A DNA stretch of 50,187 nucleotides, taken from contig CALMMQ010000117.1 in the NCBI GenBank assembly GCA_937868725.1, positions 1 to 50,187 on the forward strand, in the 5' to 3' direction. Below are positions 27,574 through 44,511 of the stretch, piece by piece. The translations under genes and the position numbers were made by a program. The notes beneath the pieces were generated by a model. That model saw only the letters and a program-made list of their open reading frames with translations. It had not been told where the DNA came from and searched no databases. The DNA comes from an uncultured Pleomorphomonas sp. Its GTDB lineage: Bacteria; Pseudomonadota; Alphaproteobacteria; Rhizobiales; Pleomorphomonadaceae. The first letter of the stretch is position 1, and each line of letters starts with the position of its first letter.

Positions 27574-27601
27574 CAGCCAACCAATCAACGAGGGCCGCCC
27601 G

Positions 27602-28687: not shown

Positions 28688-29594
28688 AGCCTTCATCCTC
28701 ACCGTGATCACGGCGGCAACGCCGCTGATGCTGGCGGCGCTGGGCGAGCTGGTGGTCGAGCGCTCGGGCGTGCTCAACCTCGGCGTCGAGGGCATGATGG
28801 TGATGGGGGCCGTCGCCGGCTTCGCCGTCACCATTTCCACCGGCAGTCCCTGGCTCGGCGTGCTCGCCGGGGCGGCGGCCGGCCTGCTCACCTCGCTGCT
28901 GTTCGCCGTGGTGACGCTGACGCTGGTGGCCAATCAGGTTGCCTCGGGTCTGGCGCTGACCATGTTCGGTCTCGGTCTCTCCGGCCTCATTGGCGAAAGC
29001 TTCGTCGGCCAGCCCGGCATCAAGCTGCAGCCGGCCAATATCCCCGGTCTCACCGACCTGCCGGTGGTCGGCCGCATCCTGTTCGGTCAGGACGCGCTCG
29101 TCTACCTGTCGTTCGTGATGATCGTCGTCGTGTCGCTGTTCCTGTTCCGCAGTCGCGCCGGCCTGATCCTGCGCGCCGTCGGCGACAACCACAGCTCGGC
29201 CCACGCCCTCGGCTACTCGGTCATCAAGGTGCGCTATCTCGCCGTCATGTTCGGCGGCGCCATGGCCGGTCTCGGCGGCGCCTATCTCTCGGTGGCCTAC
29301 ACGCCGCTCTGGGTCGAGAACATGACCGCCGGTCGCGGCTGGATCGCCCTGGCGCTGGTGGTGTTCGCCTCGTGGACGCCGTTGCGCATCTTCTTCGGCG
29401 CCTATCTCTTCGGCGCCGTCACGGTGCTGCAGTTCCATGCCCAGGCCCTCGGCATCGGCTTTCCCTCGCAGTTCCTGTCGATGCTGCCCTATGTCGCCAC
29501 TGTCGTGGTGCTGGTGGCCATTTCAGGCAACCGCCGGGCGACGCTGTTCAACACGCCGGCCTGTCTGGGCCAGTCCTTCGTGCCCGATCGCTGA
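28680..29594 (+). CDS. BMP-type ABC transporter permease 2
   Basis: 304-residue partner permease, NupQ-like. The LAALGELVVERSGVLNLGVEGMMVMGAVAGF segment is the hallmark of this subunit. GDNHSSAHALGYSVIKVRYLAVMFGGAMAGLGGAYLS is the cytoplasmic coupling region. It overlaps permease 1 and is followed by a 203-base gap before the binding protein. Confidence 0.92.
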   Translation: MLEAFILTVITAATPLMLAALGELVVERSGVLNLGVEGMMVMGAVAGFAVTISTGSPWLGVLAGAAAGLLTSLLFAVVTLTLVANQVASGLALTMFGLGLSGLIGESFVGQPGIKLQPANIPGLTDLPVVGRILFGQDALVYLSFVMIVVVSLFLFRSRAGLILRAVGDNHSSAHALGYSVIKVRYLAVMFGGAMAGLGGAYLSVAYTPLWVENMTAGRGWIALALVVFASWTPLRIFFGAYLFGAVTVLQFHAQALGIGFPSQFLSMLPYVATVVVLVAISGNRRATLFNTPACLGQSFVPDR

Positions 29595-29797
29595 GGCGGC
29601 GGCGCGGCAAACGACACCGGCCGTCGCGCTCTGGCGCGTCGGTCCACGGGGCGGCAAGAGGCCGGCTCCGACGAGGTGAAAGCCCCTCGGTTCCGACAGG
29701 ACGATCGGACGAGGCGGTATCATTGGCGTTCTCGGACAGTCCGTGGCGCTCGATTGGCAAATGGCCCGCGCAAACGTCGGGCAAGGGGAGACTGACA

Positions 29798-30862
29798 ATG
29801 AAGAAGACCGTACTTCTGGCCGGCACGGCGCTGGCCCTGGCTTTCGGCATTTCCACCGCCGAAGCGGCCAAGCTCAAGGCCTGCTGGGTCTACACCGGCC
29901 CGATCGGTGACTTTGGCTACTCCTACCAGCACGACCAGGGCCGCCTCGCCGTCGAGAAGGAACTCGGCGACAAGGTTGAGACCGCTTACGTCGAGAACGT
30001 CGCCGAAGGCCCGGACGCCGAGCGCGTCTTCGAGCGCTTCGCCCGCGAAGGCTGCGGCATCGTCTTCGGCACCTCGTTCGGCTTCATGGATGCCGAGCTG
30101 AAGGTGGCCAAGAAGTTCCCGAAGGTGAAGTTCGAGCACGCCACCGGCTACAAGTCGGCGCCGAACATGGGCCTCTACAACGCCCGCTTCTACGAAGGCC
30201 GCTACATCCTCGGCCAGATCGCCGCCAAGGAATCCAAGGCGGGCGTCGCCGGCTACATCGTCTCGTTCCCGATTCCGGAAGTCGTCATGGGCATCAACGC
30301 CTTCATGCTCGGCGCCCAGTCGGTGAACCCGAACTTCAAGGCCAAGATCGTCTGGGTCAACTCGTGGTTCGACCCGGGCAAGGAAGCCGACGCCGCCAAG
30401 GCGCTGTTCGACCAGGGTGCCGACATCATCGTCCAGCACACCGACTCGACTGCCGCCATCCAGGTTGCCGAGGAGCGTGGTCTCAAGGGCTTCGGCCAGT
30501 CGTCCGACATGGCCAAGTTCGCCCCCAAGGCGCAGCTGACCGCCATCGTCGACAACTGGGGTCCGCACTACATCAAGTCGGTCAAGGCCGTGCTTGACGG
30601 CACCTGGAAGCCGGGCGACGCCTGGGAAGGCATCAAGGACGGTACCGTCCACATGGCCGACTTCGCCAACATGTCCGACGACACCAAGAAGCTGGCCGAG
30701 GCCACCGAGGCCAAGATCGTGGCCGGCTGGAACCCGTTCACCGGCCCGATCGCCGATCAGGACGGCAAGGAGCGCTACGCCGCCGGCGTCGTCGCCCCGG
30801 ACAAGGACCTGCTTGGCATGAACTGGTACGTCAAGGGCGTCGACGACAAGCTGCCGCAGTAA
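29798..30862 (+). CDS. BMP-family substrate-binding protein
   Basis: 354-residue periplasmic binding protein of the Bmp/Med/PnrA family, which binds purine nucleosides in characterised members. The signal peptide MKKTVLLAGTALALAFGISTAEA ends at AEA|A. There is no lipobox, so it is soluble. The mature part has VYTGPIGDFGYSYQHDQGR and IVQHTDSTAAIQVAEERG. AAGGGGAG precedes the ATG at 29798. It is the last gene of the four-gene transporter, with a long spacer that may permit higher expression. The purine substrate is inferred from xdhABC next door. Confidence 0.92.
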   Translation: MKKTVLLAGTALALAFGISTAEAAKLKACWVYTGPIGDFGYSYQHDQGRLAVEKELGDKVETAYVENVAEGPDAERVFERFAREGCGIVFGTSFGFMDAELKVAKKFPKVKFEHATGYKSAPNMGLYNARFYEGRYILGQIAAKESKAGVAGYIVSFPIPEVVMGINAFMLGAQSVNPNFKAKIVWVNSWFDPGKEADAAKALFDQGADIIVQHTDSTAAIQVAEERGLKGFGQSSDMAKFAPKAQLTAIVDNWGPHYIKSVKAVLDGTWKPGDAWEGIKDGTVHMADFANMSDDTKKLAEATEAKIVAGWNPFTGPIADQDGKERYAAGVVAPDKDLLGMNWYVKGVDDKLPQ

Positions 30863-30872
30863 GCCGCTGCCG

Positions 30873-30897
30873 CCGGTCAGGCGTCCGGCCTGATCGG
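30873..30897 (+). terminator. 10-bp hairpin after the binding-protein gene
   Basis: CCGGTCAGGC (30873-30882) pairs with GCCTGATCGG (30888-30897), ten pairs with one G-T, around the loop GTCCG. It lies 10 bases past the stop. There is no T-run, so a 3'-protecting hairpin or Rho-type end is likely. Confidence 0.5.
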
Positions 30898-31000
30898 CTG
30901 GCGCCTCGGCGACGACGACAGGCACGACAAGGGATCGGGGTTGTCCGCAACGGTCGACTCCGATCCTGTTCATTTGCGCCTGATCTTCGGGGAGGCGGCG

Positions 31001-31294
31001 ATGCACGGACTCATCTACGCCGGCCGCAAGCTTGGCGAGGACATGCTGGCGACGCTGCTGTTCGCGGCCCTGCTGGTGGCCACCGATGATCTCCGGATCG
31101 CCGTCGCCGGTGGCATCCTGCTCGGTCTCGGCCAGTTGCTGTTCGACCTGTGGCGCCGGCGCGGCGTCAACTCGATGCAGGCGATCAGCCTGTTCCTGGT
31201 CATCGGCTTCGGACTCGCCGGGCTGATCGCCATCCAGTATCTGAGCATGCGTTTGGTCGGACGCACCCGCCGCCAGGCGGCGACGCCGGTCTGA
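31001..31294 (+). CDS. Half-length YciB/IspZ-like membrane protein
   Basis: 97 residues with about three membrane segments. The stretch AVAGGILLGLGQLLFDLWRRRGVNSMQAISLFLVIGFG resembles the N-terminal part of the YciB/IspZ septation-protein family (a Q, then a W-R-x-x-x-V-x-x-M-x-x-x-S-L pattern, then FG). Full YciB proteins are roughly twice as long, so this is a short or half-size relative, or a truncated copy. The ATG at 31001 has GGGGAGG 5 bases upstream; a TTG at 30941 would add 20 residues. Its role here, between the purine transporter and puuD, is unknown. Confidence 0.75.
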   Translation: MHGLIYAGRKLGEDMLATLLFAALLVATDDLRIAVAGGILLGLGQLLFDLWRRRGVNSMQAISLFLVIGFGLAGLIAIQYLSMRLVGRTRRQAATPV

Positions 31295-31526
31295 AAGTCG
31301 TGACTGATCTTGCACCAAATTGCTGAATTAATTGGCGTTTCAAAACAACGATAGGCTTGAGTTGCCAGCATTTGTCAGCCAGAATACGTGATAATGCGTA
31401 ACAATCCGAGGGGCGCGCGCGCCCGTCGGGGCAGGGGCCGTTGCCGGACGTCGACATCGGACCTGCAAGACCCGAGCGCCTGCCGGCCGACCCCGCCGGG
31501 GTGCTTCCGAGAGTGACATCGCCGAA

Positions 31527-32711
31527 ATGCTGAGCTTTGCCGCCGAGTGGCTGAACGTCCTTATTCGCTGGTTCCATCTCGTGGCCGGTATCGGCTGGAT
31601 CGGCACCAGCTTCTATTTCATTGCCCTTGATCTCAAGCTGCGCCAGCGGTCCGACATGGCCGACGGCGTCGCCGGCGCGGCCTGGCTGGTGCATGGCGGC
31701 GGCTTCTACCACGTCGACAAGTACGTGGTGGCGCCGGCCGCGCTGCCCGATGATCTCGTCTGGTACCGCTGGGAGGCCTACTTGACGTTCGTCTCCGGCT
31801 TCCTGCTGATGAACGTCCAGTATTATTTCAACGCCAGCGCCTTTCTGGTCGATCCGGCCGTCTTGGCGCTGCCGCCGCAGAAGGCCATTGCCATTTCGGT
31901 GGCCTCACTGATCCTCGGCTGGCTGGCCTACGATCTCCTGCTGATGCGCACGCCCATCGCCCGTCACACACCGACCCTGGCCGTCGGCGTCTTCGCGCTG
32001 ATCGTCGGCGCCGCCTGGGGCTATTCGCACGTCTTTTCCGGGCGCGGCGCCTTCATCCATGTCGGCGCCATGGTCGGCACCATCATGGCGGCCAACGTCT
32101 TCATGGTCATCATCCCCAACCAGCGCAAGATCGCCGCCGCGCTGATGGCCGGCCGCACGCCCGATCCGGCCTGGGCGCTGGCCGGGCGCCGCCGATCGCT
32201 GCACAACAACTATCTGACGCTGCCGGTGCTGGTGATGATGGTCTCCAACCATTATCCGCTCCTGACCGGCCACCCGCACGGCTGGCTGCTGGTGGCGTTG
32301 ATCCTGATCGTCGGTGGCGGCATCCGTCACGCTCTCAACCGTCACGAAGCGGGCGATGCCTTCGAGCGCTACCGGCTGGCGCTGATCGCCGCCGCCGTGG
32401 CGCTGGCCGTCGCTGTCATCCTCACTGCGCCGCGGCCGCGCGCCACCGTGGTCGGCGAAGTGACCGATCAGGACATCCTGCAACTGACCGCCACCCATTG
32501 CATCATGTGCCATTCGGCCCGCCCCACTCACGACGGCTTTGCCGCGCCGCCCAAGGACATCGTGCTCACCGACATCGACCACATCCGCCAGTACGCGCCG
32601 CTCATCGAGATTCAGGCGGTGCAGAACGAAGTGATGCCGCTCGGCAACGAGACGGGTATCACGCCGGCAGAGCGCGCCCGTCTCGGCGCCTGGATCGCCG
32701 CTCACAGGTAA
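31527..32711 (+). CDS. puuD: Membrane-bound urate oxidase with cytochrome c domain (PuuD)
   Basis: 394 residues: an N-terminal urate hydroxylase membrane domain with about eight helices (IRWFHLVAGIGWIGTSFYFI, HGGGFYHVDKY, NHYPLLTGHPHGW), then a C-terminal periplasmic class I cytochrome c domain. The heme motif CIMCH is at residues 325-329 and Met370 could be the sixth ligand. It oxidises urate to 5-hydroxyisourate and passes electrons to heme c, and so to respiration, rather than making H2O2. It supplies UraH and uses the XdhABC product. The upstream gap 31295-31526 has a weak promoter-like pair (TTGAGT at 31357, CAGAAT at 31380, 17-base spacer). Confidence 0.94.
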   Translation: MLSFAAEWLNVLIRWFHLVAGIGWIGTSFYFIALDLKLRQRSDMADGVAGAAWLVHGGGFYHVDKYVVAPAALPDDLVWYRWEAYLTFVSGFLLMNVQYYFNASAFLVDPAVLALPPQKAIAISVASLILGWLAYDLLLMRTPIARHTPTLAVGVFALIVGAAWGYSHVFSGRGAFIHVGAMVGTIMAANVFMVIIPNQRKIAAALMAGRTPDPAWALAGRRRSLHNNYLTLPVLVMMVSNHYPLLTGHPHGWLLVALILIVGGGIRHALNRHEAGDAFERYRLALIAAAVALAVAVILTAPRPRATVVGEVTDQDILQLTATHCIMCHSARPTHDGFAAPPKDIVLTDIDHIRQYAPLIEIQAVQNEVMPLGNETGITPAERARLGAWIAAHR

Positions 32712-32740
32712 CGGGACAACGGGGAAAAACCTGTTGCGGC

Positions 32741-32846
32741 CAAAGGAAGTCCGGGCCTATGGTCCGGCGAAACCACAGGCGATGGCGCCCTCGCGGGCGA
32801 ACCGACGATCTGTGCCAGCCTTCCTTTGTCTGGCGGTTCGGCCGCC
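32741..32846 (+). ncRNA. Candidate structured RNA leader before apt
   Basis: The puuD-apt gap folds into a multibranch structure by eye. A 9-bp closing stem joins CAAAGGAAG (32741-32749) to CTTCCTTTG (32820-32828). Inside is a hairpin CCGGGCC-TAT-GGTCCGG (32751-32767). A two-part hairpin follows, with outer arms CACAG/CTGTG (32774-32778 and 32810-32814) and inner arms CGCCC/GGGCG (32786-32790 and 32795-32799). A further hairpin GGCGG-TTCGG-CCGCC lies at 32832-32846, 28 bases before the apt start. I do not recognise a known riboswitch. It could be a cis-regulatory leader of apt or a small RNA. Confidence 0.4.
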
Positions 32847-32873
32847 GTAGAAAGTCCCGTCGTGGTGCCCTCC

Positions 32874-33401
32874 ATGAATCTCGCCGACACGATCCGCGCC
32901 ATCCCCGACTATCCCAAGCCGGGCATCATCTTTCGCGATATCACCACCCTGCTGGCCAACGCCCGCGCCTTCCGTCGCACTGTCGACGAACTGGTCCAGC
33001 CCTGGGCCGGCGGCAAGATCGACAAGGTGGCCGGCATTGAGGCGCGCGGCTTCATTCTCGGCGGCGCCATCGCCCACCAGCTCAGCGCCGGCTTCGTGCC
33101 GATCCGCAAGAAGGGCAAGCTGCCCTACGAGAAGGTGTCCATCGCCTATAGCCTGGAATACGGCGTCGACGAGATGGAAATGCACAAGGACGGCATCCTG
33201 CCCGGCGAACACGTGCTCCTCGTTGACGATCTGATCGCCACCGGCGGCACCGCCTGCGCCGCCGCCACGCTGCTGCGGGAGGTTGGCGCCATCGTCGAGG
33301 CGGCCTGTTTCGTCGTTGATCTGCCGGCGCTCGGCGGCGCGGAAAAGCTGCGGGCCATGAATGTGCCGGTGCGCACGCTGATCGAGTTCGAGGGCGAGTG
33401 A
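32874..33401 (+). CDS. apt: Adenine phosphoribosyltransferase
   Basis: 175-residue purine salvage enzyme making AMP from adenine and PRPP. The N-terminal [21 protein letters not shown] and [15 protein letters not shown] are typical. The PRPP loop [14 protein letters not shown] is intact. The ATG at 32874 gives the standard N-terminus, yet there is no Shine-Dalgarno in the ten bases before it (GTGGTGCCCTCC). The only alternative is a TTG at 32826. The gene sits at the end of the purine region, after a probably folded leader, and is convergent with a hydrolase gene 3 bases away. Confidence 0.95.
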
Positions 33402-34292: not shown

Positions 34293-35201
34293 CTATTCCG
34301 AGCCGAGCAGCGAGCGCGTCGCCTTGATGGCGGCCGAAGCGCGGTTCTCCACCCCGAGCTTCACGAATATCTGCTCAAGATGCTTGTTCACCGTGCGCGG
34401 TGACAGGCCGAGGATGTCGCCGATGTCCTTGTTGGTCTTGCCGCGGCTGATCCACAGCAGCACCTCGGCCTCGCGTGTGGTCAGGGCGAAGCTCGCCCGC
34501 AACGCTTCCTCCTCGCCACCGGCGGCGTCGAGCCGCGCCAGGCGGAACAGGAACTCGTCGGTGCCGGAGAGACCGAGCAAGGTGAACTGCAGGCCGCCGC
34601 CGTCGTCAGGGTGGAACTCCACCGTCGCCGCCGCGCCAGGATGGCCGCGCTCGGCGATGGCGGCGGCAAGGCGACCGGCCAGCGGTGCCCCTGGCTCGGC
34701 GATCTGCCCCTCGACCAGCCGCCCGGCCTGTGGCGTCGCCCACGACAGCACGCCGCGGGCGTCGACCGCCAGCAGGTGGCGACCGGCGGCGTCGAGGGCC
34801 AGCTTGGCGCTGATCGAGGCGCGGGCGTTGGCGAGGTGGACGCGGATGCGCGCCTTGAGTTCGTCGATGTTGATCGGCTTGGTCAGATAGTCGACCCCGC
34901 CCGAGGACAGGCCGTGAACGACGTGCTCGGTGTCGCTGAGCCCGGTCATGAAGATCACCGGCACGTCGGCCACCGCCGGCATGGCCTTGAGCTGACGGCA
35001 GGTGGCGAAGCCGTCGAGTTCGGGCATGACGGCGTCGAGCAGGATGACGTCGGGCGTGGCCCGCTCGGCGATGGCGATGGCCTGGCGGCCGGAGGTGGCC
35101 ACCAACACGACGACGCCGGTCTCTTCCAGCGCTTCGGTGAGAAAGCTCAGCGTTTCCGGGCTGTCGTCGACGACGAGGACGGTGTCGCGGTTCTGGCTCA
35201 T
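34293..35201 (-). CDS. Response regulator, REC and LuxR-type HTH
   Basis: 302 residues. The receiver domain (residues 1 to about 125) has phospho-acceptor Asp56 (DVILLDAVMPELDG), Thr86 and Lys108. A middle PAS-like stretch (about 130-230, LLAVDARGVLSWATPQAG) follows. A LuxR/FixJ-type HTH completes the protein (LTTREAEVLLWISRGKTNKDIGDILGLSPRTVNKHLEQIFVKLGV). It overlaps the upstream kinase gene by 4 bases (ATGA), so it is the kinase's cognate regulator. A role in controlling the divergent urt operon is inferred from position and from a palindrome upstream of urtA. Confidence 0.93.
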   Translation of the reverse strand: MSQNRDTVLVVDDSPETLSFLTEALEETGVVVLVATSGRQAIAIAERATPDVILLDAVMPELDGFATCRQLKAMPAVADVPVIFMTGLSDTEHVVHGLSSGGVDYLTKPINIDELKARIRVHLANARASISAKLALDAAGRHLLAVDARGVLSWATPQAGRLVEGQIAEPGAPLAGRLAAAIAERGHPGAAATVEFHPDDGGGLQFTLLGLSGTDEFLFRLARLDAAGGEEEALRASFALTTREAEVLLWISRGKTNKDIGDILGLSPRTVNKHLEQIFVKLGVENRASAAIKATRSLLGSE

Positions 35202-38200
35202 GGCGGGCTCACTGCATCAAGCACTTTGGCGAAGGCGGCAAAATCGAAGGCCCGCACGTGCTCTCTGAGGCTTTCGACCAAGCCGGCGTTGGCCGGATCG
35301 CCAGCCAGCGTTTCGAGCTTGGCTTCGATGCCGCGCACGTAACCGATGGCGGCGAGTGCCCTGAGATCGGCGACATGGTCGCCGCCGGGGTCGTTGAGCG
35401 CCGGCGCGGCGGCGGCGGGCGGCGGCGGAGCCTCGTCGTCGGTGAAGGTCAGGTCGAGGTGACGGCCGATGCGGTCGACGAGATCGTCGAGGGAGAACGG
35501 TTTGGCGATGACATCGTCGTGGCCGAGTTCGTCGGTCGGCGTCGTGCCGTCGCCGATGTTGGCCGACAGCATGATGATCGGCGTGGCGACACCGCGCTGG
35601 CGCAGTTCGGTGACCAGTTGCCAGCCGCTGAGACCGGGCATCAGCACATCGACAAACATCAGATCGGGCGACAGGTCGCCGTCGATCAGGTCGAGGCAGT
35701 CCTGGCCATTGGCCGCCGTCAGCACGGTGAAGCCGAGCGGTGTCAGCAGCTCGCCCATCAGCTCGCGATGGTCGGCGTTGTCGTCGACCACGAGGATGGA
35801 CCGGCGCGGTCCGCGATAGCCGGTCACCGGGCGTGCCGCTGTTGCCGTGGTGCGGGCATTGGCGGCGCCAAGCATCATCCGCACCTTGAAGGTCGAGCCC
35901 TGGCCCGGCTGCGAGGCGAGCGAGATGGCCCCGCCCAGCGTTTCGACCAGCAGGCGCGTGATGGTCAGACCGAGACCGAGGCCCGGCGTGGCAGCGGCGT
36001 CGCCGCCGCGTTCGAACGGCTGGAAGACGCGGGCCTGATCCGCCTCGGCGATGCCGGGGCCGGTGTCGGTCACGGTCATGGTCGCCACCTGATTGCGGTA
36101 GTCGACCGTGAACGTCACCGTGCCGGTGGTCGTGAACTTGATGGCGTTGGAAAGCAGGTTCACCAGAATCTGGCGCAGCCGCTTCTCGTCGGTGCGGACG
36201 ATGGCCGGCAGCGCCGGGCTGCGTTCGTGCTGGAAGGCCAGGCCCTTGGCGTCGGCTTGCAGGCGGAACATGCCCTCGATCTGGTCGAAGAAATCGTTGG
36301 CCCGCACCTCGCTCATGCGAATCTGGAAGCGGCCGGCTTCGATGCGCGAAATGTCGAGCAGGCCATCGATCAGCCCCGACAGGTGCTCGGCCGAGCGCTT
36401 GATGACGCGCAGGCCGTTGCGCCGGCCGACCGGAATGGCGGCGTCGCGTTCGAGGATCTGGGCGTAGCCGAGCACGGCGTTGAGTGGCGTGCGCAACTCG
36501 TGCGACAGGCCGACGACGTAGCGGCTCTTGGCAAGGTTGGCCGCCTCCGCCCGCTCCTTGGCCTTTTGCAACTCGGCGTCGGTCTTCTTGTGAGCGGCGA
36601 TCTCCTGGATCAGCGCCGTCGTCTGGCGCGCCGTTTCCTCCTCGGCCACGGCGCGCGAATCGCGGGCCAGCACGAAGAACCAGACGACGATGCCGATGAC
36701 CAACGAGAAGATGAAGAACAGCAGCGCCAGCGTCCAGCCAATCAGGCTGGCTTCGGCCGGGTGGCGGCTCGCCACCTCGCGGAACACCATGAAGACGATC
36801 AGCGCCACGACGATCACCCATAGCGCCAGATGGGTCAGGTAGCGGCCGAGCCGGGTCCGCGAGGCGGCAAACACCGGCGCCGGCAGCAGCCGTTCGGCGA
36901 CGAAACGCAGCTGATTGTCGAAGCGGGCGTGTGGCTTGCAGCGGTCGTGGCAGCGGGCATCGAGCGAGCAGCACAGCGAGCAAACCGGCGCGGCGTAGGC
37001 TGGGCAATAGGCCATGTCTTCCGGCTCGAAGGCGTGTTCGCACACCGAGCAGGTGAGGGTGTCCCGCGTCTTCCAGGCGAGCCGGGGCTTGCGGGCCAGG
37101 TAGAAGCGGCCGCCGGTCGCCTTGGCGATGACCGGGGCCGCGATGAAGGCGACGAACATGGCGATGATCGGTGCGAACGCCTGAGCGAGGGCGCCGAACA
37201 GTCCGACGTGGGCACCGATGCCGCAGGCGGCGGCAATGACCATGGCGCCAACGCCCACCGGATTGATGTCGTAGAGATGGGCGCGCTTGAACTCGATGCC
37301 CGGTGGACTGAGCCCGAGCGGCTTGTTGATGGTGAGATCGGCCGAGATGGTGGCGAGCCAGGCCATGGCAACGATGGCGAACACGCCGAGCGTCTGTTCC
37401 AGCGCCTGATAGATGCCGATTTCCATCAGGATGAGAGCAATCGACACGTTGAACACCAGCCAGACGACGCGTCCGGGATGGCTGTGGGTGAGGCGTGAGA
37501 AGAAGTTCGACCAGGCGAGCGAGCCGGCGTAGGCGTTCATGACGTTGATCTTGAGCTGCGAGATCACCACGAAGGCGGCGGTCAGCAGGTAGGCGGCCTG
37601 GTCCGAGGGCAGCACGTAGCCGAAGGCGACGGCGTACATGCGTGCCGGCTCGGCGGCGTGGTCGACGGGTACGCCGTGGGCCAGTGCCAGCACGGCCAGA
37701 AACGAGCCGGCCACCATCTTGGGTGCTCCGAGCACCACCCAGCCGGGGCCGGCAAGGAACAGGGCGATCAACCAATTGCGGCGAGGCCCGCCGAGCCGGG
37801 CCGGCACGAAGCGCAGAAAGTCCACCTGTTCGCCGATCTGGGCCGTCAGCGCCAGGATGACGGCGCTGGCGGCGCCGAAGGCGGCGAGGTCGAAGCCGGC
37901 AGCGCCATCCGGCGCGCTGCGGCCGACGAAGCCCAGCCAGCTCTCCACCGATCCCCAGTCCGACAGGGCGATGAACACGAACGGCAGCACGTTGAGCACG
38001 ATCCAGAACGGTTGCGTCAACAGCTGGAAGCGGCTGATCCAGGTGACGCCGTGGGTGACGAGCGGGATCACCGCCACCGTCGAGACGACGTAGCTGGCCC
38101 AGAGCGGAATGCCGAGCGCCATCTCCAGCGCTGTCGACATGATCGACGCCTCGATGGCGAACAGGATGAAGGTGAAGCTGGCGTAGATCAGCGAGGTGAT

Positions 38201-38548
38201 GGTCGAGCCGATGTAGCCGAAGCCGGCGCCGCGCGTCAGCAGGTCGATGTCGACGCCGTGGCGCGTCGCCGTGCGGGCGATCGGCCAGCCGAGAATCAGC
38301 AGGATGACGGACGCGACGATGATGGCCCAGAAGGCGTTGACGGTGCCATAGGACAGCGTGATGGCGCCGCCGATCGCCTCGAGGGCCAGAAACGAGATGG
38401 CGCCGATGGCGGTCTGGGCGATGCGGTCCGATGACCAGCGCCGGGCCGACTTGGCCGTGAAACGCAGCGCATAGTCTTCGAGCGTCTGATTGGCCACCCA
38501 GCGATTGTAGGCGCGACGGATCGGAATGATGCGTTGCCGTTCGGCCAT
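35198..38548 (-). CDS. NCS1-transporter/hybrid histidine kinase fusion
   Basis: 1116 residues. Residues 1 to about 480 form an NCS1 (purine/cytosine/allantoin permease-like) domain of about twelve helices, starting RAYNRWVANQTLEDYALRFTAK. A cysteine-rich segment follows with Cys500, 503, 515, 523, 526, 527, 533 and 537. Two more helices (about 570-590 and 602-627) and a coiled coil lead to a histidine kinase with His683 (LSHELRTPLN), N-box Asn797/801, DTGPG at 828 and GLGLG at 856. The receiver has Asp967 and Lys1016, and an extended tail of about 70 residues follows. The ATG at 38548 is chosen over 38701 because it gives the conserved start. It may sense a transported nitrogen compound; urea or a purine derivative is inferred from the neighbours. 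Confidence 0.93.
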   Translation of the reverse strand: MAERQRIIPIRRAYNRWVANQTLEDYALRFTAKSARRWSSDRIAQTAIGAISFLALEAIGGAITLSYGTVNAFWAIIVASVILLILGWPIARTATRHGVDIDLLTRGAGFGYIGSTITSLIYASFTFILFAIEASIMSTALEMALGIPLWASYVVSTVAVIPLVTHGVTWISRFQLLTQPFWIVLNVLPFVFIALSDWGSVESWLGFVGRSAPDGAAGFDLAAFGAASAVILALTAQIGEQVDFLRFVPARLGGPRRNWLIALFLAGPGWVVLGAPKMVAGSFLAVLALAHGVPVDHAAEPARMYAVAFGYVLPSDQAAYLLTAAFVVISQLKINVMNAYAGSLAWSNFFSRLTHSHPGRVVWLVFNVSIALILMEIGIYQALEQTLGVFAIVAMAWLATISADLTINKPLGLSPPGIEFKRAHLYDINPVGVGAMVIAAACGIGAHVGLFGALAQAFAPIIAMFVAFIAAPVIAKATGGRFYLARKPRLAWKTRDTLTCSVCEHAFEPEDMAYCPAYAAPVCSLCCSLDARCHDRCKPHARFDNQLRFVAERLLPAPVFAASRTRLGRYLTHLALWVIVVALIVFMVFREVASRHPAEASLIGWTLALLFFIFSLVIGIVVWFFVLARDSRAVAEEETARQTTALIQEIAAHKKTDAELQKAKERAEAANLAKSRYVVGLSHELRTPLNAVLGYAQILERDAAIPVGRRNGLRVIKRSAEHLSGLIDGLLDISRIEAGRFQIRMSEVRANDFFDQIEGMFRLQADAKGLAFQHERSPALPAIVRTDEKRLRQILVNLLSNAIKFTTTGTVTFTVDYRNQVATMTVTDTGPGIAEADQARVFQPFERGGDAAATPGLGLGLTITRLLVETLGGAISLASQPGQGSTFKVRMMLGAANARTTATAARPVTGYRGPRRSILVVDDNADHRELMGELLTPLGFTVLTAANGQDCLDLIDGDLSPDLMFVDVLMPGLSGWQLVTELRQRGVATPIIMLSANIGDGTTPTDELGHDDVIAKPFSLDDLVDRIGRHLDLTFTDDEAPPPPAAAAPALNDPGGDHVADLRALAAIGYVRGIEAKLETLAGDPANAGLVESLREHVRAFDFAAFAKVLDAVSPP

Positions 38549-38890
38549 GGTCGTTTCCGTTGCGTCCGTTTGCCTGCCTGGAAGGCGGAATGCCCATTCG
38601 GCGGGCGCCGTCGCGTCGTCGAGGCGGACGCGGCGCGCCGGAAATGCGCCGATCCACCCGATGAAGCGCCGCGCCCCGTCGCTCGCTCGGCTCTTTTGCA
38701 TGCTTCGTGCCGGTTTCTCCGGGCGCCCCAGGGGCGTCGATCGATGTCGCCCGCCTCTTTTCCGGTCACGCCGAGCGAGTGGGCAGGCTTTACGTCAATC
38801 GACGTATAGGCGTTTGGCGCCCTGCGCCCGACAGTCCCGGCCAAGGCGCCGATCCAGAGCGGCGGCCTTCAATGAACGGGGAACAGACAC
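38549..38890. other. Divergent region between the kinase gene and urtA
   Basis: 342 bases separate the divergent starts. The kinase frame stays open to an ATG at 38701, so an N-terminal extension of 51 residues is possible but not family-like. GAACGGGGAACAG gives only a weak Shine-Dalgarno for urtA. The notable element is the palindrome at 38791-38806, reported separately. No other gene is supported. Confidence 0.5.
38791..38806. promoter_or_regulatory. Palindrome TACGTC-AATC-GACGTA upstream of urtA
   Basis: Perfect 6-bp arms around a 4-base spacer, 84 bases before the urtA start. It overlaps a -10-like TATAGG (38805-38810). FixJ/NarL-type regulators often bind TACGTA-like half-sites, and such a regulator is encoded by the divergent two-component operon. 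It is a candidate operator for urtABCDE; the link is inference. Confidence 0.45.
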
Positions 38891-40174
38891 ATGAACACCT
38901 TCGCCTCCCGCAGTTTTTGCCTTGCCGCGCTCGCCGGCGCGCTCGTCTCCTCGACCATGTTCGCCAGTGCCGCCGACGACACCATCAAGGTTGGCGTGCT
39001 GCATTCGCTGTCCGGCACCATGGCCATCTCCGAGACCACGCTGAAGGACACGGTGCTCTACCTGATCGACGAGCAGAACAAGAAGGGCGGCGTGCTCGGC
39101 AAGAAGCTTGAGCCGGTGGTCGTCGACCCCGCCTCCAACTGGCCGCTGTTTGCCGAAAAGGCGCGCGAACTCATCTCCAAGGACAAGGTGTCGGTGGTGT
39201 TCGGCTGCTGGACCTCGGTCAGCCGCAAGTCGGTGCTGCCGGTGTTCAAGGAACTCAACTCGATCCTGTTCTACCCCGTCCAGTACGAGGGCGAGGAGTC
39301 CGAGCGCAACGTCTTCTACACCGGCGCCGCCCCCAACCAGCAGGCCATTCCCGCCGTCGACTACCTGATGAACCAGGAAGGCGTGAAGCGCTGGGTGCTG
39401 GCCGGCACCGACTACGTCTACCCGCGCACCACCAACAAGATCCTTGAAGCCTACCTCAAGGCCAAGGGCGTGCCGGCCGAAGACATCATGATCAACTACA
39501 CGCCGTTCGGCCATGCCGACTGGCAGTCGATCGTCTCCGACATCAAGAAGTTCGGCTCGGCCGGCAAGAAGACCGCCGTGGTCTCCACCATCAACGGCGA
39601 CGCCAATGTGCCGTTCTACAAGGAGCTGGCCAACCAGGGCATCAAGGCCGAGGATATCCCCGTCGTCGCCTTCTCGGTGGGTGAGGAAGAGCTCGCCGGT
39701 ATCGACACCAAGCCGCTGGTCGGTCACCTCGCCGCCTGGAACTACTTCGAGAGCGTCGACAGCGACGCCAACGCCGCCTTCATCGACGGCTGGCACAAGT
39801 TCATCAAGAACGACAAGCGCACCACCAACGATCCGATGGAAGCCACCTACATCGGCTTCAATGCCTGGGTGAAGGCGGTCGAGGCGGCCGGCACCACCGA
39901 CGTCGATCCGGTCATCGACACGCTGATCGGCACCACCGTGCCGAACCTCTCCGGCGGCTACGCCACCATCATGCCGAACCATCACATCACCAAGCCGGTG
40001 CTGATCGGCGAAATCCAGGACAACGGCCAGTTCGACATCGTGTCGCAGACGGCGCCGGTGGTTGGTGACGAGTGGTCGGACTACCTCGAAGGCTCCAAGG
40101 ACCTGATCTCGGATTGGCGCAAGCCGCTCGCCTGCGGCAACTTCAACGTCAAGACCGGCAAGTGCGGCGGCTGA
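38891..40174 (+). CDS. urtA: Urea ABC transporter, substrate-binding protein UrtA
   Basis: 427-residue periplasmic binding protein of the urea/short-amide (FmdD/UrtA) type. The signal peptide ends near FASA (residue 27). The mature start DDTIKVGVLHSLSGTMAISETTLKD and the later WPLFAEKARELI, GCWTSVSRKSVLPVF, LFYPVQYEGEE and GDANVPFYKEL match UrtA. The start ATG at 38891 gives the signal peptide. A GC-rich hairpin follows before urtB. High-affinity urea uptake implies urease or urea amidolyase elsewhere, since neither gene is in the window. Confidence 0.95.
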   Translation: MNTFASRSFCLAALAGALVSSTMFASAADDTIKVGVLHSLSGTMAISETTLKDTVLYLIDEQNKKGGVLGKKLEPVVVDPASNWPLFAEKARELISKDKVSVVFGCWTSVSRKSVLPVFKELNSILFYPVQYEGEESERNVFYTGAAPNQQAIPAVDYLMNQEGVKRWVLAGTDYVYPRTTNKILEAYLKAKGVPAEDIMINYTPFGHADWQSIVSDIKKFGSAGKKTAVVSTINGDANVPFYKELANQGIKAEDIPVVAFSVGEEELAGIDTKPLVGHLAAWNYFESVDSDANAAFIDGWHKFIKNDKRTTNDPMEATYIGFNAWVKAVEAAGTTDVDPVIDTLIGTTVPNLSGGYATIMPNHHITKPVLIGEIQDNGQFDIVSQTAPVVGDEWSDYLEGSKDLISDWRKPLACGNFNVKTGKCGG

Positions 40175-40235: not shown

Positions 40236-40256
40236 GGGGGCGCGCCGTGCGCCCCC
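40236..40256 (+). repeat. GC hairpin between urtA and urtB
   Basis: GGGGGCGC (40236-40243) and GCGCCCCC (40249-40256) are perfect 8-bp arms around GCCGT, 61 bases after the urtA stop. There is no T-run. It is probably a transcript-protecting or attenuating hairpin that favours binding-protein expression over urtBCDE. Confidence 0.5.
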
Positions 40257-40291
40257 GACGCGCCAACGGCATTCTGACCGGGAAAGGTTCC

Positions 40292-41908
40292 ATGCGACCC
40301 ATCCGTCTGATCGTCGCGTTCTGCGCCTGTCTTGTCTGGGCGATCGCCGCCGCCGCCGCCCCTATCAACGACAGCGATTTCGGCGCCCTGGTCAGGGCGC
40401 TCGGGCAGGGCGGCTTCGATGACACCGAGAAAGCTGTCGCGGCTCTCGCGGCCAGCGGCGACGATCGTGTCGCCGTCCTCCTCGACAAGCTCGGCTCCGG
40501 CGATCTCGTGGTGCGCAAGCCCGACGGCGGCGTGTTCCTGGCCGCCAAGTCCGGCAAGGACTTCGCCCTCAGCGACCCCGTCAGCGGTGCCGACGCCGGT
40601 ATTGCCCCCAAGGCGACCGTCGAAAAAATCAAGATCAACAACAAGCTGCGTCGCGCCATCGCCTCGGCGGTCGGCAATCTGACGCTGATGAGTCCCGATC
40701 CGACCATTCGGCGCGGCGCCGCCGAAGCGGTGCTGAAGTCGGCCGATCCGGCCGCCATCGCCGTACTCGACAAAGCCATCGCCGCCGAGACGGTCGCCGA
40801 CATCAAGGCCACCATGGTCATTGCCCGCGCCACCGCGGTGCTGGCCTCCGACGCGCCGGAAGCCGACAAGGTGAACGCGGTCGCCGCCATTGCCGAAAGA
40901 GGCAACCGCGACGCCCTGTCGCTGATCTCGCCTTACGTCAGCGCCGACGGCGCCCTTGGCGAGGCGGCCCGCCAGGCGGTCGCCGGCATCGAGCACGGCC
41001 TGATGGCCTGGGACGCCGGTCAGAACATCTGGTACGGCCTGTCGCTCGGTTCGGTGCTGCTGCTCGCCGCCATCGGCCTTGCCATCACCTTCGGCGTCAT
41101 GGGCATCATCAACATGGCCCACGGCGAAATGGTCATGCTCGGCGCCTACGCCACCTTCGCCGTGCAGGAGCTGATCCGCAATTTCTGGCCCGGCCTCTTC
41201 GACTATTCGCTGCTCATCGCGCTGCCCGTGGCCTTCCTGGTGGCCGGCGGCGTCGGCGTCGTCATCGAGCGCCTCATCATCCGCCATCTCTACGGCCGGC
41301 CGCTTGAAACGCTGCTCGCCACCTGGGGCGTGTCGCTGATGCTGCAGCAGGCGGTGCGGTCGCTGTTTGGCGCCAACAACCGCGAGGTCGGCACGCCCGG
41401 CTGGATGGCCGGCTCCTTCGAGCTCGGTCAGATGCAGATCACTTGGCCGCGCCTGTGGATCATCCTGTTCGCGCTCGCCGTATTCCTGACCCTCATCGCC
41501 ACGCTGAAGCACACGCCGCTCGGCCTGCAGATGCGCGCCGTGACGGCTAACCGCGCCATGGCCGCCGCCATGGGCATCCGCACGCCGCTCATCGACGCGC
41601 TGACCTTCGGCCTCGGCTCCGGCATCGCCGGGCTGGCCGGCGTCGCCCTCAGCCAGATCGACAACGTCTCGCCCAACCTCGGGCGCGGCTACATCATCGA
41701 CAGCTTCATGGTCGTCGTCTTCGGCGGTGTCGGCAATCTCTGGGGCACGCTGGTCGGCGCCATGACGCTCGGCATCGCCAACAAGTTCCTGGAGCCGTAC
41801 GCCGGTGCCGTGCTCGGCAAGATCCTGCTGCTGGTCTTCATCATCCTGTTCATCCAGAAGCGTCCGCGCGGCTTGTTCGCGCTCAAGGGCAGGGCGGTCG
41901 AACAATGA
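40292..41908 (+). CDS. urtB: Urea ABC transporter, permease UrtB
   Basis: 538 residues: a signal-like N-terminus, then a roughly 215-residue periplasmic helical region (typical of UrtB and unlike LivH), then a LivH-type permease from about residue 245 (LSLGSVLLLAAIGLAITFGVMGIINMAHGEMVMLGAYATF). The ATG at 40292 follows GGGAAAGG. An earlier in-frame GTG at 40247 is unlikely. It overlaps urtC by 4 bases (ATGA). Confidence 0.95.
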   Translation: MRPIRLIVAFCACLVWAIAAAAAPINDSDFGALVRALGQGGFDDTEKAVAALAASGDDRVAVLLDKLGSGDLVVRKPDGGVFLAAKSGKDFALSDPVSGADAGIAPKATVEKIKINNKLRRAIASAVGNLTLMSPDPTIRRGAAEAVLKSADPAAIAVLDKAIAAETVADIKATMVIARATAVLASDAPEADKVNAVAAIAERGNRDALSLISPYVSADGALGEAARQAVAGIEHGLMAWDAGQNIWYGLSLGSVLLLAAIGLAITFGVMGIINMAHGEMVMLGAYATFAVQELIRNFWPGLFDYSLLIALPVAFLVAGGVGVVIERLIIRHLYGRPLETLLATWGVSLMLQQAVRSLFGANNREVGTPGWMAGSFELGQMQITWPRLWIILFALAVFLTLIATLKHTPLGLQMRAVTANRAMAAAMGIRTPLIDALTFGLGSGIAGLAGVALSQIDNVSPNLGRGYIIDSFMVVVFGGVGNLWGTLVGAMTLGIANKFLEPYAGAVLGKILLLVFIILFIQKRPRGLFALKGRAVEQ

Positions 41909-43035
41909 TTACATCCTTCCTTCTCAATGGTTTCGACCGTCGCGCCCGCCTCGTCGTCGCCGTGCTCCTGGCCCTGGCCGTGCTGGTGCCGGCCTCCAGC
42001 CTGCTGACGCCGGACGACTCTTTCGTGCACGTCTCCACCTACCAGCTGACGCTGATGGGCAAGTACCTCACCTATGCGCTGCTGGCGCTGTCGGTCGATC
42101 TCATCTGGGGTTATTGCGGCATCCTGTCGCTCGGCCACGGCGCTTTCTTCGCCCTCGGCGGTTACGCCGCCGGCATGTACCTGATGCGCCAGATCGGCCC
42201 GCGCGGCGTCTACGCCGATCCGGTGCTGCCCGACTTCATGGTGTTCCTCAATTGGAAGGAGCTGCCCTGGTTCTGGCACGGCTTCGACATGGCCTGGTTC
42301 GCCGCCGCGATGGTGGTGCTGGTGCCGGGCCTGCTGGCCTTCGTCTTCGGCTGGTTCGCCTTCCGCAGCCGCGTCACCGGCGTCTACCTCTCCATCATCA
42401 CCCAGGCCATGACCTACGCCCTGCTGCTGGCCTTCTTCCGCAACGACATGGGCTTTGGCGGCAACAACGGCCTCACCGATTTCAAGGACATCCTCGGCTT
42501 CCCGATCCAGGCTGCCGGCACGCGCGCCGCGCTGTTTTCCGCCTCGGCCGTCATGTTGGCGCTGGCCTTCGTCGTCGCCTCGGCCGTCACCGCCTCCAAG
42601 CTCGGCAAGGTGCTGGTGGCCGTCCGCGACGCCGAAAGCCGGACGCGCTTCATCGGCTACCGCGTCGAGCACTACAAGCTGTTCGTCTGGACGCTTTCCG
42701 CCGTCATGGCCGGCATCGCCGGGGCGCTCTACGTGCCGCAGGTCGGCATCATCAACCCCTCGGAGTTCGATCCCAGCGCCTCCATCGAAGCGGTGATCTG
42801 GGTGGCGGTCGGCGGTCGCGGCACGCTGGTCGGCGCGCTGATCGGCGCCGTGCTGGTCAACTTCGGCAAGACCTGGTTCACCGGCATGCTGCCCGAGGTG
42901 TGGCTGTTCGCCCTCGGCGGCCTGTTCGTGGTGGTGACGCTGTTTTTGCCCAAGGGCATCGTCGGACTGTTCGCCAGCCGGCGCGTCCCCCCTGATCACA
43001 GCGGCGTTTCGGCAACCGGGGAGGCGGCATCGTGA
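41905..43035 (+). CDS. urtC: Urea ABC transporter, permease UrtC
   Basis: 376-residue LivM-type permease. LALSVDLIWGYCGILSLGHGAFFALGGYAAGMYLMRQIG and TDFKDILGFPI are typical of UrtC. RDAESRTRFIGYRVEHYKLFVWTLSAVMAGIAGALY is the coupling region. It overlaps both urtB and urtD by 4 bases, consistent with a tightly coupled operon. Confidence 0.95.
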   Translation: MITSFLLNGFDRRARLVVAVLLALAVLVPASSLLTPDDSFVHVSTYQLTLMGKYLTYALLALSVDLIWGYCGILSLGHGAFFALGGYAAGMYLMRQIGPRGVYADPVLPDFMVFLNWKELPWFWHGFDMAWFAAAMVVLVPGLLAFVFGWFAFRSRVTGVYLSIITQAMTYALLLAFFRNDMGFGGNNGLTDFKDILGFPIQAAGTRAALFSASAVMLALAFVVASAVTASKLGKVLVAVRDAESRTRFIGYRVEHYKLFVWTLSAVMAGIAGALYVPQVGIINPSEFDPSASIEAVIWVAVGGRGTLVGALIGAVLVNFGKTWFTGMLPEVWLFALGGLFVVVTLFLPKGIVGLFASRRVPPDHSGVSATGEAAS

Positions 43036-43784
43036 GCGACAAGGCCGAAGGTTCGATCCTCTATCTCGACAACGTCTCGGTGGCCTTCGACGGCTTCAAG
43101 GCCATCAACAACCTGTCGCTGGTGCTGGAGCCGGGCGAGATGCGCGCCATCATCGGCCCCAACGGCGCCGGCAAGACGACGATGATGGACATCATCACCG
43201 GCAAGACGCGCCCCGACAGCGGCGACGTGCTGTTCGACGGCTCGGTCGATCTGACCCGGCTCGACGAGGCGGCCATTGCCAATCTCGGCATCGGCCGCAA
43301 GTTCCAAAAGCCGACGGTGTTTGAAAGCCATACGGTGGAAGAGAACATCGCGCTCGCCCTCAAGGCCAGGCGCGGCGTCTGGGCCAGCCTGCTCAACCGC
43401 CGTTCGCCGGCCGAACAGCAGCGCATCGACGCCCTCCTGACCACCATTCGCCTCAGCGACCGCCGCGACTGGCTGGCCGCCAATCTCAGCCACGGCCAGA
43501 AGCAATGGCTGGAGATCGGCATGCTCTTGGCGCAGGAGCCGCGACTGCTCCTGGTCGACGAGCCGGCCGCCGGCATGACCGACGCCGAAACGGCGGAAAC
43601 CGCCATTCTGCTCAAGGAGATCGCCCGTACCCAGTCGGTCATCGTCGTCGAGCACGACATGACCTTTGTGCGCGAACTCGACGTCAAGGTGACGGTGCTG
43701 CACGAAGGATCGGTGCTGGCCGAAGGCTCGCTCGATGCCGTCTCGGCCAACAAGCGCGTCATCGAGGTCTATCTCGGCCGGTGA
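43032..43784 (+). CDS. urtD: Urea ABC transporter, ATPase UrtD
   Basis: 250-residue LivG-type ATPase. Walker A is GPNGAGKTT, the signature is LSHGQKQWLEIGM (the H and W variant seen in UrtD), Walker B is LLLVDEPAAGM and the H-loop is VVEHDM. It starts at GTG 43032, overlapping the urtC stop, with GGGGAGG just before. It partners UrtE. Confidence 0.95.
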   Translation: MSDKAEGSILYLDNVSVAFDGFKAINNLSLVLEPGEMRAIIGPNGAGKTTMMDIITGKTRPDSGDVLFDGSVDLTRLDEAAIANLGIGRKFQKPTVFESHTVEENIALALKARRGVWASLLNRRSPAEQQRIDALLTTIRLSDRRDWLAANLSHGQKQWLEIGMLLAQEPRLLLVDEPAAGMTDAETAETAILLKEIARTQSVIVVEHDMTFVRELDVKVTVLHEGSVLAEGSLDAVSANKRVIEVYLGR

Positions 43785-43815
43785 GGGCGCCGGGCCGCAG
43801 CAAGGAATGTCCGAC

Positions 43816-44511
43816 ATGCTGAACGTCGAAAACGTCAATCTCCACTATGGCGCCGCCCAGGCGCTGCGCGGCGTGTCGCTCAAGGCCACCGCCGGCCGCG
43901 TGACCTGCGTCATGGGACGCAACGGCGTCGGCAAGACGTCGCTGATGCGCGCCATTGTCGGTCAGCAGCCGATCTCCAGCGGCAGCATCGTCTGGAACGG
44001 CAAGGACATCGTGGCGCTGAAGCCCTACGACCGGGCGCGCGCCGGCATCGCCGTCGTGCCGCAGGGCCGCGAGATCTTCCCGCTCCTCACCGTCGAGGAG
44101 AATCTCGAGACGGGCTACGCCCCGCTGCCGCGGCGCGACCGCTACATTCCCGATACCATCTACGATCTTTTCCCGGTGCTGAAGGACATGCTGCGCCGGC
44201 GCGGCGGCGACCTCTCCGGCGGCCAGCAGCAGCAGCTGGCCATTGGCCGCGCCCTGGTCACACGGCCGAAGCTATTGGTGCTCGACGAACCCACCGAGGG
44301 TATCCAGCCGTCGATCATCAAGGACATCGGCCGGGCCATCACCTTCCTGCGCCAGCAGGGCGACATGGCCATCATCCTGGTCGAGCAGTACTTCGATTTC
44401 GCCCGCGATCTCGCCGACGATTTCCTGGTCATGGATCGCGGCGAAGTGGTGATGGCCGGCACGCGCGAGACCATGGACGAGGCGGCGGTGCGCGCCCGCA
44501 TCGCCGTCTGA
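43816..44511 (+). CDS. urtE: Urea ABC transporter, ATPase UrtE
   Basis: 231-residue LivF-type ATPase. Walker A GRNGVGKTS, signature LSGGQQQQLAIGR, Walker B LLVLDEPTEGIQPSI and VEQYFDFA are present. The ATG at 43816 is preferred because AAGGA ends 9 bases before it; the ATG at 43807 directly abuts that Shine-Dalgarno and would add only three residues. It is the last urt gene, followed by the terminator at 44604-44625. Confidence 0.94.
   Translation: MLNVENVNLHYGAAQALRGVSLKATAGRVTCVMGRNGVGKTSLMRAIVGQQPISSGSIVWNGKDIVALKPYDRARAGIAVVPQGREIFPLLTVEENLETGYAPLPRRDRYIPDTIYDLFPVLKDMLRRRGGDLSGGQQQQLAIGRALVTRPKLLVLDEPTEGIQPSIIKDIGRAITFLRQQGDMAIILVEQYFDFARDLADDFLVMDRGEVVMAGTRETMDEAAVRARIAV

Follow-up and report, generated by a model that had tools for sequence, protein, structure and literature searches.

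An NCS1-type permease-like domain fused to a hybrid histidine kinase beside urtABCDE: a candidate receptor for urea and short amides

The window analysed here is a 50,187-nucleotide stretch of DNA from an uncultured Pleomorphomonas sp. (contig CALMMQ010000117.1), and its subject is a gene on the minus strand, at 35198..38548, that encodes an NCS1-type sensor hybrid histidine kinase of 1116 residues. We favour a reading in which this protein is a receptor kinase for urea, its counterparts in other lineages probably responding to short amides such as formamide, and in which its LuxR-type partner would bind a palindrome upstream of urtA and control the urt genes. The architecture of the kinase, its neighbours, the palindrome and the co-occurrence of the palindrome with the kinase–regulator pair are all observed. 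To a broader scenario we give an even chance: an NCS1 permease, most likely a urea/amide carrier, would have become a dedicated urea/short-amide receptor kinase, equipped with an operator of its own before urea/amide transporter operons and now distributed across Pseudomonadota and Klebsiella plasmids; the standalone permease of a urease operon would then represent a so far overlooked urea transporter of the NCS1 superfamily. General nitrogen regulators are the usual explanation for how bacteria control urea uptake. If the proposal is true, a dedicated receptor kinase beside urt gives urea and formamide a sensing pathway of their own, in soil symbionts and on Klebsiella plasmids. It would also place NCS1 alongside SLC5 and Amt among the transporter families from which sensors have arisen, and would offer standalone relatives for a comparison of receptor and transporter as well as a defined 16-base candidate site.

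Domain architecture of the kinase and its partner

The reading frame of the kinase extends on the minus strand from an ATG at 38548 to a stop that ends at 35198, and the plus strand over the same interval is broken by stops. An alternative start lies upstream at 38701; homologues nonetheless begin at the 38548 methionine. The protein is composed of a permease-like region (residues 1 to ~490), an eight-Cys segment (residues 500–537), a hydrophobic stretch (residues ~571–652) and the HisKA (674–739), HATPase_c (786–891) and receiver (REC, 918–1027) domains, the last three being located by a Pfam scan as HisKA, HATPase_c and Response_reg. These three domains carry the catalytic residues of a hybrid kinase, which we take to be H683, the N, G1 and G2 boxes, and D967 under their usual motif names. 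The same scan reports no Hpt domain in the kinase, and the nearly 90 residues beyond the receiver (35198–35461) have neither a Pfam name nor an Hpt match. Between residues 490 and 674, DUF6526 at E 0.71 is the only Pfam match; judged by eye, the hydrophobic stretch probably holds two transmembrane helices (TM).

The partner gene (34293..35201, minus strand) encodes a REC-LuxR response regulator of 302 residues with Response_reg and GerE domains by Pfam, and the two neighbours together constitute a LuxR/NarL-type two-component pair. On the other side of the kinase, urtA (38891..40174, plus strand) encodes the binding protein of a urea ABC transporter, scoring 549.9 bits on the NCBIfam model urea_ABC_UrtA (TIGR03407) against a cut-off of 492.75. 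It is followed by urtB, urtC, urtD and urtE (40247..44511, plus strand), whose names rest on reading frames, gene order and tblastn (the order is the same in relatives) and not on a family-library scan. The first-pass annotation, made from the DNA letters alone, had described a 1116-residue fusion of an NCS1 domain with a HisKA-HATPase-REC module, and this is borne out by the frame, the Pfam scan and the profile comparison given below. Its two statements on the surroundings were also correct: the kinase shares four bases, 35198–35201, with the REC-LuxR gene and is divergent from urtABCDE, with 342 bases between them, the annotation having named no strand.

Relationship of the N-terminal domain to NCS1 permeases

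The N-terminal half (37079..38548, minus strand) is related to the wider NCS1 family on grounds of sequence comparison that are solid, if indirect, and not by a curated score. Pfam reports no permease family for the window protein at E ≤ 1, PF02133 included, and no symporter family, such as the SLC5 domain, is among its matches at that threshold; a PF02133 search of the window's own genome is likewise empty. Homology instead comes by way of a relative and of profiles. A standalone Klebsiella permease, WP_002916878.1, is 41.7% identical to the kinase over residues 21–530 and scores 37.7 bits on PF02133 (cut-off 23.5). Similarly, hhalign aligns 49 sensor domains with four PF02133 members at 95.7% probability (E 9.5e-9) over 414 columns, a homology of permease length in which G..G, D..RF and N..N positions are common to both sides. 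The profile of the same four members matches Mhp1 (2jln, E 4.6e-41) and the cytosine permease CodB (7qoa, E 1.3e-18) in the PDB, where searches with the sensor profile and with a distant permease each gave no match at E ≤ 10.

The chain from sensor to PF02133 to Mhp1 also permits a comparison of substrate-site residues. Mhp1 W117, which we take to stack on the substrate in TM3, aligns with L129 of the sensor domain (Leu in 25/49, Phe in 24/49); Q121, presumably also substrate-holding, aligns with E133 (49/49); and S312/T313, which we take for the sodium site in TM8, align with K333/I334 (49/49). Neither the Mhp1-type stacking tryptophan nor the sodium-site Ser/Thr pair is found in the sensor domain by sequence alignment alone. 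Since the stacking tryptophan is lost, a flat aromatic ligand is argued against, and the lysine at the sodium site suggests a domain that needs no sodium. The first-pass annotation had proposed just such a comparison: the NCS1 alignment stands, and a site of purine or hydantoin type is not supported, given the Leu or Phe in place of W117. In contrast to Mhp1, the domain is fused to a kinase. The polar candidate pocket residues E133, Q237, E240, Q241, K333, N335 and N338 are invariant in all 49 sensors, over which the domain region has a mean column identity of 63%. A search for residues that follow genomic context gave a weak signal, with Leu at position 129 in 6 of 11 chosen urt/urease rows versus 2 of 49 amide rows; as one of the eight best among all columns, and uncorrected, it is not used as evidence. 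M337, tried as a mark of urea loci, was rejected as only a mark of lineage.

The Klebsiella protein (L292:9941-11548, annotated as a cytosine permease) is the nearest standalone permease found, and its gene is the one after ureG in a urease operon. It shares E133, K333, N335 and N338 with the sensor domain and keeps two CxxC pairs; it differs in standing alone, without a kinase, and in having a shorter Cys segment. It is in its own right a candidate urea permease of the NCS1 superfamily. A second standalone permease, in a genome of the phylum, has as its neighbours a double CN-hydrolase and a protein with a Peripla_BP_5 match, which we read as AmiC-like, and more distant relatives are found near hydantoinase A/B. 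Taken together, the plain-permease relatives appear to point the same way as the contexts of the kinase, to urea and amides. When the urease-operon permease was searched at E ≤ 1e-60 for standalone relatives in 349 genomes, all 46 places listed lay in frames of at least 894 residues, that is, in kinase fusions.

Between the permease-like domain and the kinase lies the Cys-rich segment (36938..37051, minus strand), whose eight cysteines are invariant in the 49 aligned sensors. Two standalone permeases, the urease-operon protein (L292) and L101, have a shorter segment with two Cys pairs, and a third (L280) has none. Because the shorter version is present in standalone permeases, the sensor may have inherited the segment from the permease and enlarged it. 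A segment of this kind could bind zinc or be redox-active.

Conserved neighbourhoods and a palindrome upstream of urtA

Among 297 genomes sampled from the window's order, the sensor domain is matched in 88 (E ≤ 0.001), and 88 places among the matches listed reach at least 48% identity. Excluding the window's own, 70 of 87 such loci were analysed for their neighbours; the partial match G619 and ten other places of full-length type outside the order were left out, as were the order members G922, G987 and G995, and L103, L104 and L108 yielded no usable sensor match in the neighbourhood survey. All 70 order loci lie within ~8 kb of urtA (39, class A), of an Urt-like ABC operon with a formamidase gene (23, class B) or of a formamidase gene alone (8, class C).

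At every class A locus, urtA is at least 60% identical to that of the window and a relative of the regulator is present; urtE is found at 37 of 39, the other two (L060, L063) being cut. The distance of urtA from the kinase start is 0.5 to 7.1 kb, and is within ~1.3 kb in all but five. The Urt-like operon, formamidase and regulator relative are equally constant in class B (23/23 each), such that the regulator accompanies the kinase at 62/62 loci of the two classes. The UrtA-like protein of class B is just 36–40% identical to UrtA of the window. At one such locus, L073, the formamidase is above the FmdA equivalog cut-off and the UrtA-like protein is above that of urea_ABC_UrtA, and therefore the cargo of class B could be urea, formamide or both. 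This fits the suggestion that a urtABCDE set beside a formamidase gene perhaps takes up formamide (PMC13209695; here and below, cited papers are represented by excerpts of their text). Class C (L093–L100) consists of a shorter NCS1-kinase near a formamidase gene (8/8). No relative of the LuxR regulator was found at these eight loci at the cut-off used, and Pfam reports no receiver in the kinase of L095, the one examined. The next gene encodes a REC-HisKA-HATPase protein at L093, L098 and L099; at L095 the next frame picked has no Pfam match.

Of 42 loci outside the order, 38 lie near urt genes or genes for an Urt-like ABC system, formamidase or urease, the last assigned by Pfam. In a set of named genomes, which overlaps the others, 76 of 80 loci have a urea/amide gene near the kinase, and two of the four misses (L251, L262) are on a short contig or close to where a contig ends. 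L060 is scored as "none" in the urea/amide tally, its urtA being cut by the contig end, and as urtA in the class tally. Among the matches listed, the named genomes nearest by sensor domain are Pleomorphomonas, at 77–78% identity. More distant arrangements include Sphingobium, in which the kinase gene begins 3 bases after the urease genes, and Methylosinus, in which it is divergent from urt and urease genes. The link to urt across genomes, on which the first-pass annotation had staked its reading beforehand, holds in these counts, for class A with urtA and outside the order with urea/amide genes in general. The window's own genome contains a urease alpha gene and, when searched, gave no match to an FmdA-family formamidase, a combination consistent with urea.

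A tree of 112 sensors and two permeases was made by a quick method, with a root for drawing only; named loci (80), plasmid loci and L060 were not part of it. On this tree the urt label needs six changes and the amide label seven, of which at least five and at least four, respectively, are forced by supported branches. All five context labels together require 9 changes versus a mean of 47.2 when shuffled, and none of 200 shuffles was as low. The kinase has therefore swapped partners repeatedly, staying mostly within urea and amide metabolism.

The palindrome TACGTC-AATC-GACGTA (38791..38806) lies ~100 bp upstream of urtA and is the putative operator of the LuxR-type regulator. Its conservation was assessed in 115 intergenic regions (the window, 78 further loci and 36 named loci), obtained by thinning 138 on shared 12-mers and comprising divergent kinase–transporter pairs only, which are still related by descent. 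An inverted-repeat search, made without bias, recovers TACGTC-N4-GACGTA in 49/115 regions, where the best motif of that shape in 30 shuffles reaches 1, and TACGT-N6-ACGTA in 71/115, where the best in shuffles reaches 5. At least 10 of 12 bases are kept in 61/62 class A regions (the miss being L170) and 27/53 class B regions. When the half-sites TACG and CGTA are allowed spacings of 2–15, a spacing of 8 is found in 59/62 class A (window included) and 36/53 class B regions, and every other spacing in at most one region per class. Over the 88 regions that carry the palindrome, its centre is a median of 100 bases before the aligned urtA start. In the window's own 4.13-Mb assembly it is the sole perfect copy.

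The palindrome is also tied to the presence of the kinase. In 19 of 20 chosen class A genomes the site lies between kinase and urtA (the miss being G277), and no site with up to one mismatch is near urtA in 53 chosen genomes with urtA and without the kinase, the closest being 18 kb off; these controls were drawn from 110 such genomes, with one urtA place per genome and positions compared by eye. None of the eight class C loci has the site. Where kinase and urtA lie apart, the palindrome goes with urtA: at five loci in which the urtA start is 2.2–6.5 kb from the kinase start, the site is 74–130 bases from urtA. A further example is pSymB of Sinorhizobium meliloti strain B401 (L294), with a homologue 67.6% identical, where the variant TACGTCATTCTACGTA lies close to urtA (97 bases) and farther from the kinase (1.7 kb). 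At L171, L172 and L173, where no urea/amide genes were found, the variant TACGCAAAATAACGTA or its reverse complement lies ~165–190 bases from the aligned kinase start.

Proposed mechanism, alternative readings and known systems

We infer the ligand, the route of the phosphate and a possible loss of transport in a model in which an NCS1-type permease domain was recruited as a sensor. Urea or an amide would occupy the old substrate site of the domain, and a conformational change would be relayed by the Cys-rich segment and the hydrophobic helices to the core of the kinase, where autophosphorylation at H683 would follow, as expected because the kinase motifs are intact. The phosphate would then reach the REC-LuxR regulator, either directly or by way of the internal receiver (D967) and a separate Hpt protein. 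The regulator would bind TACGTC-N4-GACGTA and activate urtABCDE, possibly together with its own divergent gene, and in class B the same circuit would serve the Urt-like ABC transporter and formamidase. That control is by activation is an assumption modelled on RpuS/R, which governs the nearby transporter gene mctP, and on CrbS/R, in which CrbR acts through an imperfect inverted repeat (PMC9100948, PMC5715377).

Several observations weigh against this model. Neighbouring genes do not show the ligand, and what the kinase senses could be ammonium or the nitrogen status of the cell; for signal perception by CbrA, its SLC5 domain is reported to be dispensable (PMC9100948). No urea/amide gene was found near the kinase at L171–L174, outside the order, or at the named loci L256 and L270, both with full flanks. 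The palindrome is neither universal nor exclusive to the system. TACG-N8-CGTA is missing in 17/53 class B regions, in the urt loci L168, L169 and L196 and in the urease-linked loci L195, L199, L282 and L296, and at L175, L176, L177 and L180 the site is ~0.9 kb or more from urtA. At up to two mismatches it is no commoner in the window's own genome than a reversed control (42 versus 61), and 32 of the 53 kinase-less genomes contain it at some position with up to one mismatch.

Among the alternatives, a possible but doubtful one is that the NCS1 domain has remained a working transporter of urea or amides and signals their flux, so that one protein combines low-affinity uptake with sensing. Conservation of the whole domain region and the sharing of E133, K333, N335 and N338 with the urease-operon permease are in keeping with this, as is the report that the SLC5 domain of CbrA takes up histidine without need of the kinase domain (PMC9100948). 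A dedicated ABC transporter gene is already beside the kinase at most loci, however, and the recruited transporter in Ks-Amt5 lost transport (PMC5764959). We regard as unlikely the alternative that the signal is nitrogen status, ammonium, pH or membrane energy, sensed in another part of the protein, for example in the Cys segment, with the NCS1 domain as a vestigial anchor. The dispensability of the CbrA SLC5 domain for perception and the eight invariant cysteines before the kinase would agree with such an anchor, and CCCP induces expression of the amsSR genes, which encode a pair of comparable layout (PMC10112286). A mere anchor would have no need of polar candidate pocket residues invariant in 49/49 sensors, and the partner genes deal specifically with urea and amides.

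Next in order is a receptor for purine, allantoin or hydantoin that would link the adjacent purine-breakdown genes to urea uptake, which we consider very improbable. NCS1 proteins classically carry nucleobases and hydantoins, distant standalone relatives are the ones near hydantoinase A/B, and in the window the kinase adjoins a purine-type cluster (25993–33401) with an ABC transporter, the membrane urate oxidase PuuD and apt, partly named by eye. Against these stand the Leu or Phe in place of the stacking W117, formamidase and urease partners that do not fit a purine, and the absence of PuuD and BmpA matches at all 70 order loci, including five same-genus loci with enough flank (L032–L036). 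In that survey L031, L081 and L090 were short on the relevant side, and the contig of L031, the closest relative, ends ~0.7 kb past the regulator. The first-pass annotation had named urea, allantoin, hydantoin or a purine as ligand; its urea guess agrees with the urt and urease neighbours, the others are disfavoured by the counts of PuuD and BmpA and by the substitution of W117, and short amides, which it did not name, fit the neighbourhoods equally well as urea. Hitch-hiking, in which neighbours are kept by common descent only and the kinase does not regulate them, is hardly credible: operons can persist in related genomes, and most loci are from related Hyphomicrobiales, but the contexts vary (divergent urt, same-direction urt, amide ABC, formamidase only, urease) and shifted repeatedly over the tree, and the palindrome is by urtA in 19/20 kinase-linked urt genomes versus 0/53 kinase-less ones.

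The receptor-kinase model has precedents. Kinases of the SLC5/STAC type (CbrA, CrbS, RpuS) likewise have an N-terminal transporter domain fused to a histidine kinase (PMC9100948, PMC5715377, PMC6591292), and CrbS and RpuS share a C-terminal REC and a LuxR-family regulator partner (PMC9100948, PMC5715377). They differ in that their genes are those of acetate, pyruvate and histidine, not of urea and amides, and the present kinase has an NCS1-type domain followed by a Cys-rich segment and a hydrophobic stretch. Ks-Amt5 is alike as a transporter recruited as receptor for a nitrogen compound and fused directly to a histidine kinase (PMC5764959); it has an Amt domain in a trimer and a kinase of DHp and CA only, in contrast to the NCS1-type domain, hybrid kinase and LuxR partner seen here. 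AmsSR of Acinetobacter baumannii, compared by description and not by sequence, has 14 predicted TM helices, a histidine kinase, a REC and an adjacent LuxR-type regulator, lacks an Hpt, and is linked to CCCP and metabolism (PMC10112286); in the excerpted text, urea, purine, NCS1 and SLC5 occur 0 times. The closest mention in the literature found is a locus of Ectopseudomonas guguanensis G3, where a hybrid kinase and LuxR regulator stand beside a second urtABCDE (PMC13296017); also compared by description, it is an annotation only, and the excerpted text mentions neither the permease nature nor an operator. A search of open-access titles and abstract openings found no description of an NCS1–histidine kinase fusion, a scope that does not imply absence from print. 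Transporter-fused histidine kinases being already known from SLC5/STAC and Ks-Amt5, the NCS1-type fusion would be the new part.

The sensor domain matches 532 plasmid records, 342 of them Klebsiella by the first word of the name. Among the best 30 of the 532 matches, 20 are Klebsiella, of which 19 are whole-domain matches at 49.5–49.7% and one (H29) is the standalone permease. In the one Klebsiella plasmid examined (L291), the kinase is divergent from urtABCDE-formamidase, with a variant of the palindrome between them, and the kinase gene is followed by a relative of the regulator. For Klebsiella, a urea cluster (UrtABC/AmiF) has been suggested to be of benefit in the urinary tract (PMC13060141), in a paper whose main text contains none of the terms histidine kinase, two-component and response regulator. 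Near-identical DNA is present in 6 of 5,426 Escherichia coli genomes, in four of these over at least 80% of the query. As minor observations, the Klebsiella plasmid matches are often annotated merely as "ATP-binding protein", and a plasmid of Acinetobacter pittii carries a truncated piece of the sensor domain (L295:8001-8525) near an IS element and ureC.

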